This document shows positions 51,201 to 54,200 of a stretch of DNA of 64,000 bases, piece after piece (the stretch's first letter is position 1; each line of letters opens with the position of its first letter). Both the position numbers and the translations under genes were made by a program. The notes under the pieces were generated by a model, which saw only the letters and a program-made list of their open reading frames with translations, made no database searches and had not been told where the DNA came from. The stretch spans positions 16,122,008 to 16,186,007 of the forward strand of contig NC_091134.1 in assembly GCF_041381155.1 (NCBI RefSeq), in the 5' to 3' direction. The stretch comes from Argopecten irradians. Taxonomy: Eukaryota > Mollusca > Bivalvia > Pectinida > Pectinidae.

Positions 51201-54200
51201 ATAGTCATATGTTATCTAATGGCATCTGAATTCAAAGGAAATGTAAATTTCTAAAACGACAAAAATGTGTTTACGACCATATGATTTTGGATGAAACTAT
51301 TTTTCTTTCCTTGCAGCAAAATATGATGATTTTCAGGAGCTATTTATAATGACATATTTTACCTGCAATTTTACATGTCCATCTGTTGTCGACAAGACAA
51401 TTGGAGGACTTCAGTCTGCCATGAGATCCAATATCAGACCTATGCAAAAATTCCATTCCACGACAAATATCTTTTAGAAGAGAAAACCTGAAATCCCATC
51501 CGAGTTTGATACTCTCATTGGACAGCATATCCTCCAGACTTCCCTGAAACAGAATACAACTGACTAGTTGGTAGGCTGGCTTGTTAATCCCTCTTTAATG
51601 ATATACAAAATCAATTGTAAGCATAGCTAATACTTCACCTATTTTTCAATTAAATATGTGAAAGGTAGATTGAAATAAAACAAAATGTAAATTCTCCATA
51701 TAAGTATTATCTAAACTCAAATTGGTGCTATGTCATGTAGGTTATTGTCTATCTATCCCTAATCCTCTCCTATTTAAGCCATTTTAAAGATAATATTTTG
51801 AGCTATTGAAGGACAGAAAAAACTTTCAATTGATTTTATAACCTATCCTACCTTTGGTGCCACTTCTGTTAGAAGTCCCACATAAGGATATTCCAGACAA
51901 GCTCCCACAAAGGTAATCAGATTGTTGTGTCGGGTTTCTTTGATGCGGACAACTTCATACCTTAACGCTTCATCTTCCACATTCAAGGACACACAGTTAA
52001 ATTGCTACAAACAATACACATTGAATTACAAAAAATAATAATTAAAAAAATTCTGATGATACCTAATTCACATACTGCAAATTCTTCAAATCATATCAGT
52101 TATATCATGTCAACTATCAGCTGCATTTACATTAACTGCTTCAGAGAAAAAGTTGTCTCTGTCAACTATTTTTTTCAACTTTTCTACGGTGTTCTCTAAA
52201 TAAGGATAAGAGTCTTACAGCTCAACCTGTATGCAGGGAACACATCTTTCAGAGAATGTCTTGAGATAGTTAAGAAGGTAGGCCTTGGTTAGTATACATA
52301 CTTGAACAAAGCACTTCTGGCTCCTCCAGGTACAGATGTTGGTTTTATTAGACTGCATGAATTCATCTCCTGCAGTGGAAAGGAAACTAAGAGCTCTCGC
52401 ATCTCCTACCATAACCTCATCCCATTTGACAAGCCAGTCCAAATTCTTTAGAGCAGCTGCTAGCCTCTGCCTAAAAGTCATCACAAGTACAACAGTGCAG
52501 GTATTTTACTTTACTCTTCTTGTGCAAGGAAGTTATGAATGGAACATATTTAGTATCTAAACAAAACCACATACATGTATTTATGTTTAAAGCATTCATT
52601 ATCAAGATATTTTTTCCCTGCTCCTTTCTGCATTTTTAACTCTAAATGAACCCAAATGCACATTTAACTTAGTATCCTATAAATAAACTATGTTAGGGAA
52701 TTTATCGTTTTATAAATCATTTATTTCTGTACAGAGAGGTTTGTCATAGTAAAGGAAATTTTATTATTCTAAATTAAAATGGTGTTTCTCTTTCCACTTA
52801 CCTCTTCAGTAAATATTTGATGATGAACACAAGCAAGATCGTTAAGACAATGGCACCTAATAGGGAGCCAACAACGACAGCAGCTAGGGAATGTCCACAC
52901 GACGATCCAATGTAGCCAGAGTCACAGGTACAGGTCTCCGGAGCCGAACAATGACCATTGGATCCACAAGAGATCCTATTTCATTCAGGTAAGAAAAGTT
53001 TAATTCTAGTTGTGATGTACCACGAAAAATCCTATAAGTTAAATGATCAATCCACATTAAAGTTAGAAACATATTTTTGATAGATGAATCAAGCCTGCTG
53101 GGATCTATTTGAATAAAATTATTTATTTTGAATTATTTGGCTCCAGTTCTAGGGTTTAGAATGATCCATTAGGACAGAACACTGGAGGAAGAATACATGA
53201 CTAACATCTATATAAAAAGTTGTTACATGCATACATACGTGTTACAAATTGGGATCTCACAGCGAGTTCCTTTATAACCATTTTGACAGATGCAGACTTC
53301 AGGAATATCACAATGGCCAAACACACAGCTACAAACCATCTTATCACAGGTAACTCCATAGTAACCAGGATGACATCTACAAACAAAAACGTAAATAAAT
53401 GACATAATCACCCAGCTTTGTTATGGCACTCACTCTGGTATTGCCTAACCTGGTCTTTTATGAAATCTCCAGGAAATAATATAAAGTTTTCATATCTTAA
53501 TATTTTATGTATAGACTGTATTCAAATAGATAATTCTCATCAACATTTCATTTTGACATGTTACAAAAATCCTTGAGTTTGCAATCAATATTTTGCTAAA
53601 AAGACTGAATTTCTGTCTTTTTATCACAAGTTCATTATGAAGTTAGAATATTACACTCTTTAAAACTTGTTTCTTTTTAAAATACCTCAAGAGTGTGAGG
53701 TAGATTCTATATCCAATAACCACTGAGTTACATCTATAACCATCTGTGCTAACACTGTTAGTAAGCTTCTGTATGTACCTACGTGCAGACATCCTGGTTG
53801 GTGCAGTCACCAAACTGGTACTGTGTGATATCGTACTCATTGATGGCATTACCACCACAGCCGTCGACACAGTAGAATGGTGCGACAGTGTACTCAGTCT
53901 CCACCACTTGTTCTGGTTCACCTGTTCCCGGTGGAATGATGATGAGCTGTTGTGTACTAGCGCTCACCATTCCAGTAGAGGTAGTCACACTGTAGATCAA
54001 ATCAACACAAAACACTATACTCATGGTTTTAATGTCAGCCAATAGTTAGGAATTACATAATTAATTATTGTAATTTCTCTTTTGAAATATGAACGAGAGA
54101 TGCTGACAAAAATTGTTATGCTTTTATGACCAAATAGGCAAAAGCTAACATACTTCCATTTGTTCTTGTATTGTGTTGGTGGAATGGTGTCGTTAGCAAT

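Follow-up and report, generated by a model that had tools for sequence, protein, structure and literature searches.

Three EGF-like modules before the membrane helix of a receptor guanylyl cyclase from Argopecten irradians

Introduction

The usual plan of a receptor guanylyl cyclase comprises a ligand head, a short juxtamembrane stretch, a membrane helix, then a pseudokinase and finally a cyclase, and the way in which the head is coupled to the helix is a long-standing question. In a 64,000-nucleotide stretch of Argopecten irradians DNA (C1:16122008-16186007, hereafter the window), a sequence-only reading had proposed a receptor guanylyl cyclase in which three exons add EGF-like modules just before the membrane. 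Do these modules belong to one receptor, and what might they do there? A natural, disulfide-braced stalk of about 100 residues before the helix would permit testing how closely and how rigidly head and helix must be coupled.

Results

Gene model

Inside the window the receptor gene consists of 26 coding exons on the minus strand, which translate to 1147 residues. It continues past the window edge (position 64000) and was followed on contig C1, giving a complete model with 35 exons that totals 5052 nt and codes for 1683 residues. In the direction of transcription, with the window numbering continued beyond the edge, the features are:

87168-87126, minus: candidate for the likely signal-peptide exon (strict donor and hydrophobicity filter)
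73376-73067, 72313-72135, 71533-71316, 70953-70662, 70390-70245, 69570-69375, minus: exons of the N-terminal extension
69125-68991 (start of the ligand domain), 66439-66351, minus: ligand-domain exons beyond the edge
61326-64000, minus: intron crossing the window edge, with nine further coding exons beyond it
54154-61325, minus: ligand-domain region, nine in-window exons (AG/GT borders, one open frame, Pfam ANF_receptor)
61325-61188, 60348-60253, 60089-60006, 58900-58755, 58498-58402, minus: exons 1-5 of these nine
57848-57687, 57459-57340, 57065-56940, 54311-54154, minus: exons 6-9 of these nine
53989-53783, minus: linker after the ligand domain and cysteines 1-4 of EGF module 1 (AG/GT, phase 2-2, Pfam EGF)
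53376-53239, minus: cysteines 5-6 of module 1, the whole of module 2 and cysteine 1 of module 3 (AG/GT, phase 2-2, Pfam EGF, PDB)
52975-52802, minus: cysteines 2-6 of module 3, membrane helix and stop-transfer KYLLKR (AG/GT, phase 2-2, alignment with the NPR1 helix)
48951-52470, minus: kinase-homology domain, eight exons (AG/GT, open frame, PK_Tyr_Ser-Thr, NPR1 alignment)
52470-52302, 52004-51852, 51543-51363, 51188-51113, minus: kinase-homology exons 1-4
50789-50700, 49655-49523, 49370-49269, 49070-48951, minus: kinase-homology exons 5-8
42268-48370, minus: putative dimerisation linker and cyclase, six exons (AG/GT, open frame, Guanylate_cyc; stop at 42268-42270)
48370-48189, 47866-47727, 44086-43934, 43091-42993, 42864-42773, 42375-42268, minus: linker and cyclase exons

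The three exons proposed to carry the EGF modules were recovered with exactly the borders first suggested. All three have AG acceptors, followed by the donors GTAGGT (53989-53783), GTATGT (53376-53239) and GTAAGT (52975-52802); each is phase 2 at both ends, they join without a stop, and the flanks are in phase, with 54311-54154 ending and 52470-52302 starting in phase 2. The eight exons past the edge from 66439-66351 to 73376-73067 also join in phase. Splice sites were picked to fit the frame, so that this agreement in phase is partly built into the model; the domain matches are not. For exon 58498, a donor at 58404 broke the frame and was rejected in favour of the stronger GTAAGT at 58402, which gives one open frame.

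Upstream of the extension (73377-103993), no further exon scored convincingly except a signal-peptide candidate. This 43-nt exon, 87168-87126, reads MNLIVAAVLLFLST and is the likely signal-peptide start; it alone in that interval passed a strict filter on donor and hydrophobicity. With looser criteria, nine other candidates appeared up to 84000; the required phase was part of the filter.

The gene contains two stretches duplicated in tandem at 98-100% identity, one at 58.4-60.1 kb (58400-60120, spacing 832-851 bases) and the other at 45.6-49.7 kb (spacing 2105-2107 bases), and the model takes one copy of each doubled exon. Splicing of the second 2.1-kb copy would break the frame (a phase 1 donor onto a phase 2 acceptor), which makes it likely that the copy arose in assembly, stems from a second haplotype or is a very recent duplication. 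These near-identical internal duplications of 0.85 and 2.1 kb, and the construction of the model from DNA alone, would fit an error in which the EGF or N-terminal exons come from a different gene, or the assembly of the locus is wrong. We consider such an error very improbable, since both doubled stretches are clear of the EGF exons. An origin of the EGF exons in another gene was rejected, as a single exon encodes EGF module 3 together with the membrane helix and is followed in phase by the first exon of the kinase-homology domain. A separate gene for the extension was likewise rejected, as the 249-base gap before 69125, the first ligand-domain exon, has no start followed by a hydrophobic run in any frame and the phases match.

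The window also holds features outside the coding exons of the receptor. Transposase pieces in two frames (63156-63885, plus; DDE_Tnp_1_7, 46.4 and 111.4 bits) lie in an intron of the gene. A methylenetetrahydrofolate reductase exon is found at 19420-20019, plus (MTHFR_C 177.2 bits, MTHFR 76.2), and an open frame at 34096-34371, plus, has TPR-like matches under the cut-off (TPR_12 22.7 versus 30.1). Minisatellites at 21705-23115 and 37759-40202 give repeated open frames on both strands, with a 29-base unit at 40000-40202, and in a long trinucleotide-like tract at 1672-1953 the different frames read as stretches of His, Ile, Met or Asp.

EGF modules

The repeated cysteine patterns noticed before the helix are three consecutive EGF modules. 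The stretch of 107 residues contains 18 cysteines, arranged as three groups of six with gaps of 3,17,5,1,8, of 1,4,5,1,8 and of 4,5,5,1,8, and each group has the CxC and the C-terminal glycine pattern of an EGF module. Module 1 has a long loop of 17 residues between its second and third cysteines, and in module 2 a single residue separates the first two. None of the three modules matches the calcium-binding EGF consensus D/N-x-D/N-E/Q before a cysteine.

On the 107-residue stretch, three Pfam families exceeded their cut-offs, EGF_Teneurin (34.7 bits, cut-off 24.3), EGF_2 (28.4, 22.1) and JAG1-like_EGF2 (27.3, 27), while EGF_TEN (39.4, 65) and EGF_DL_JAG (23.4, 27) stayed below. A domain scan of the joined protein had been suggested as a check, and on all 1147 window residues it still scored the modules as EGF, with narrow passes for EGF_2 (22.6 versus 22.1) and EGF_Teneurin (25.6 versus 24.3); JAG1-like_EGF2 (16) fell below its cut-off. 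A teneurin array was not found, EGF_TEN being under its cut-off in both scans.

With phmmer the stretch matched 37 PDB sequences at E <= 0.1. The best chains were WIF1 (2.9e-11), fibrillin-1 (1.4e-9), Delta-like (1.5e-6) and Jagged-1 (1.2e-5), followed by the weaker teneurin-3 (2.3e-4) and Tie2 (9.2e-4). No guanylyl cyclase was among the 37, and the library includes a nearly full-length NPR1; this fits the earlier statement that NPR1 has no EGF modules. The core CxCxxG[YFW]..G..C occurs three times in the stretch and at no other place in the six frames of the whole window, and 200,000 shuffles of the stretch gave one copy in 439 cases and two or more in none. A chance cysteine pattern was ruled out by the Pfam scores, the PDB matches and these shuffles.

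Exon borders fall inside the modules and not between them, so that no simple gain of one-module exons is apparent. Since module 3 and the helix share exon 52975-52802, this exon cannot provide the anchor without the module. The phases indicate that skipping it would keep the frame and remove the membrane anchor, whereas skipping 53989-53783 or 53376-53239 would keep both, and shorter stalks by alternative splicing are therefore possible. All three exons being phase 2-2, and two of them dispensable for frame and anchor, would fit modules that only lengthen the stalk and shield it from proteases, with signalling as in an ordinary receptor cyclase. A paralogue on C8 (L050), which has a likely helix and no cysteine module in its open frame, points the same way. 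The 18 cysteines in three regular modules nevertheless suggest selection on structure, and we regard a passive spacer as quite unlikely.

Membrane helix, kinase-homology domain and cyclase

A single membrane helix, read from the sequence between the ligand and kinase-homology domains, aligns with the NPR1 helix. From the helix to the C-terminus the protein matches NPR1 best in the PDB (2e-147), and guanylyl cyclase C at 3.1e-107. The kinase-homology domain (PK_Tyr_Ser-Thr, 105.9 bits) is a pseudokinase that reads HGRLKSSN and lacks the catalytic Asp. In the present model it also has no beta-3 lysine and no DFG aspartate (VSLN, IAGFG); ATP may no longer control the receptor, or the model may miss a small exon in 52301-52005. 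The putative coiled-coil or dimerisation linker aligns with NPR1, but HNOBA (16.3) stays under its cut-off of 23.4. Guanylate_cyc is matched over profile positions 1-183 of 183 (231.7 bits). The cyclase retains SDIVGFT, VETIGDAY and a 13-residue stretch identical to NPR1, motifs that hold the metal, guanine and transition-state residues. Pfam, the PDB matches and the splice phases thus agree with the proposed order of ligand domain, three EGF modules, helix, pseudokinase and cyclase, and the assignment as a genuine animal receptor-type (particulate) guanylyl cyclase is firm as far as sequence can tell.

Ligand domain and N-terminal extension

The head had been described as an NPR-type ligand domain. 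An ANF_receptor ligand domain, which most receptor guanylyl cyclases have, was readily found: it scored 61.8 bits on the part inside the window and 78.6 with the two exons past the edge (cut-off 25.4). However, no NPR chain was among the 35 PDB matches listed at E <= 1, of which the best was mGluR1 at 0.055 and the other top matches were also mGluRs. The ANF_receptor superfamily includes glutamate-receptor heads as well. By sequence comparison, the ligand domain belongs to this superfamily and has no significant PDB relative, and the NPR-type label is supported for the intracellular half and not for the head.

Six exons before the ligand domain encode about 446 residues. These exons pair up into three units; every outer border of a unit is in phase 1, and the units end in IEVT, ITVT and FTVT. 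This suggests three tandem modules, although the alignment among these is weak. Neither Pfam (best DUF5643, 12.6 versus 34) nor NCBIfam gave a match over the cut-off for the extension; its sole PDB match, a viral glycoprotein at E 0.06, was taken as chance. The size and apparent modularity of this additional extracellular part could point to a receptor cyclase of the adhesion type, in which the EGF array and the extension bind a neighbouring cell or the matrix, and this contact gates or modulates cGMP production. EGF arrays of this kind are often found in adhesion and matrix proteins, and fibrillin, teneurin, Delta/Jagged and Tie2 are among the PDB neighbours. Against this, the extension gave no known adhesion domain in Pfam, NCBIfam or the PDB, and the receptor still has its flytrap domain; we judge a receptor of the adhesion type unlikely. 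Distinctly unlikely, in our estimate, is the more specific version in which modules of an undescribed family in the extension bind the cell or matrix. If it were true, tethering or tension through the EGF stalk would set the flytrap response, and cGMP would report adhesion and soluble ligand together.

Relatives in the same genome

Searches of the window's own assembly (846 Mb) gave 121 exon-level matches to the cyclase family, not all of which are receptor cyclases. Paralogues were sought exon by exon with a query of linker, EGF, helix and kinase-homology residues (91 matches at E <= 10), and 77 of 129 candidates were scored. Among these matches, 19 other exon-sized ones were to the HGxLKSSN exon, with 39-66% identity, on the same strand as cyclase matches and at most about 22 kb from them; two, on the small contigs C673 and C707, may represent a second haplotype. 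Apart from those in the window gene, EGF matches were located on C12, C16 and C22, and none at the 19 HGxLKSSN places among the candidates scored. The extension plus ligand domain (844 residues) gave 20 matches, 19 of them in the window gene and the remaining one at E 0.46.

Near 12 other cyclase places, 16 loci (L035-L050) were examined. Kinase-homology sequence was detected by tblastn at five places (L036, L038, L045, L049 and L050), and the EGF core was absent from the 199,993 bases of L031-L050, of which L035-L050 lie near cyclase places. These searches indicate, short of proof, that EGF modules do not occur at other receptor-cyclase loci of the genome; their sensitivity is limited, as the ANF_receptor family search gave 65 matches without listing the gene of the window itself.

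One paralogue (L049, C6:36473500-36483499, minus, frame 2327-2004) has CGNGACETEDGEDCETCPKDCGTC, a cysteine element of another kind, immediately ahead of its likely helix, from which it follows that the position before the helix has been rebuilt more than once. On C2 (about 53246202-53248823, minus; L045 1-2103 plus L022 1339-3519), an intronless open frame of 927 aa joins a PBP_like_2 head (47.0 bits, cut-off 27), resembling a bacterial phosphate-binding protein, to a membrane helix and to kinase-homology and cyclase domains (cyclase 67 bits); judged by eye, this cyclase seems to have lost its catalytic motifs. It would be unexpected to find a head of the periplasmic type on a protein that resembles receptor cyclases, and the frame may also be a contaminant or a retrocopy. 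Together with the EGF array, the cysteine element of L049 and the head on C2 suggest that the outside of these receptors was rebuilt by domain gain.

Discussion

Our preferred reading is a receptor guanylyl cyclase in which the EGF array acts as a disulfide-braced stalk that couples a raised head to the helix. We hold this statement as a whole to be somewhat better than an even bet: what the protein is can be regarded as firm, and the role of the stalk is proposed by analogy. NPR-type receptors are dimers in which ligand binding rearranges the flytrap domains. The present receptor would work as a dimer, and a ligand would rearrange its paired flytrap domains. The EGF array would be a semi-rigid stalk that lifts the head off the membrane and transmits this rearrangement to the membrane helices, upon which the pseudokinase and linker would turn, the two cyclase domains would pair and cGMP would be formed. 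The N-terminal extension probably adds a further contact surface. The gene may be most useful as a natural test of the coupling between head and membrane in receptor cyclases.

The closest well-characterized system is NPR1 (GC-A, PDB 9bcv and others), which resembles the present protein from the helix to the C-terminus, in the HGxLKSSN loop and in the cyclase residues; both have an ANF_receptor ligand domain by Pfam. In contrast, the PDB chain of NPR1 is not matched by the EGF stretch and the present ligand domain has no significant NPR1 match. Where NPR1 reads AVKR, ITDYG and HGNLKSSN, the present protein reads VSLN, IAGFG and HGRLKSSN. To our knowledge, NPR1 has no N-terminal extension of this kind, and NPR2 and GUCY2C have no EGF modules. 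The six-cysteine modules are of the same type as those of WIF1, teneurins, Delta/Jagged and Tie2, but we know of no flytrap domain, pseudokinase-cyclase or cGMP output in these proteins.

The receptor guanylyl cyclases of other invertebrates (C. elegans GCYs and oyster RGCs) share the overall plan. These families are large, with 27 members in C. elegans and 23 in oyster according to PMC4883820, and EGF modules are not mentioned for them in the accessible parts of PMC4883820, PMC5225109 and PMC1435932. Among the papers listed by the literature searches, none concerned an EGF-bearing receptor guanylyl cyclase; the combination of domains is undescribed as far as searched, in a receptor class that is well known.

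For the stalk, the nearest analogy is offered by the class C GPCRs, to which the mGluRs that give the best (non-significant, E 0.055) PDB matches of the ligand domain belong. In these receptors a flytrap head sits on a Cys-rich, disulfide-braced stalk before the membrane. Class C GPCRs have seven helices and a nine-cysteine domain, whereas the present protein has one helix, an intracellular cyclase and EGF modules. Despite these differences, the EGF stalk might take the role that the Cys-rich domain of class C GPCRs plays in linking the flytrap to the helices. Some class C GPCRs of gut fungi are reported to have EGF-like domains themselves (PMC5168858).
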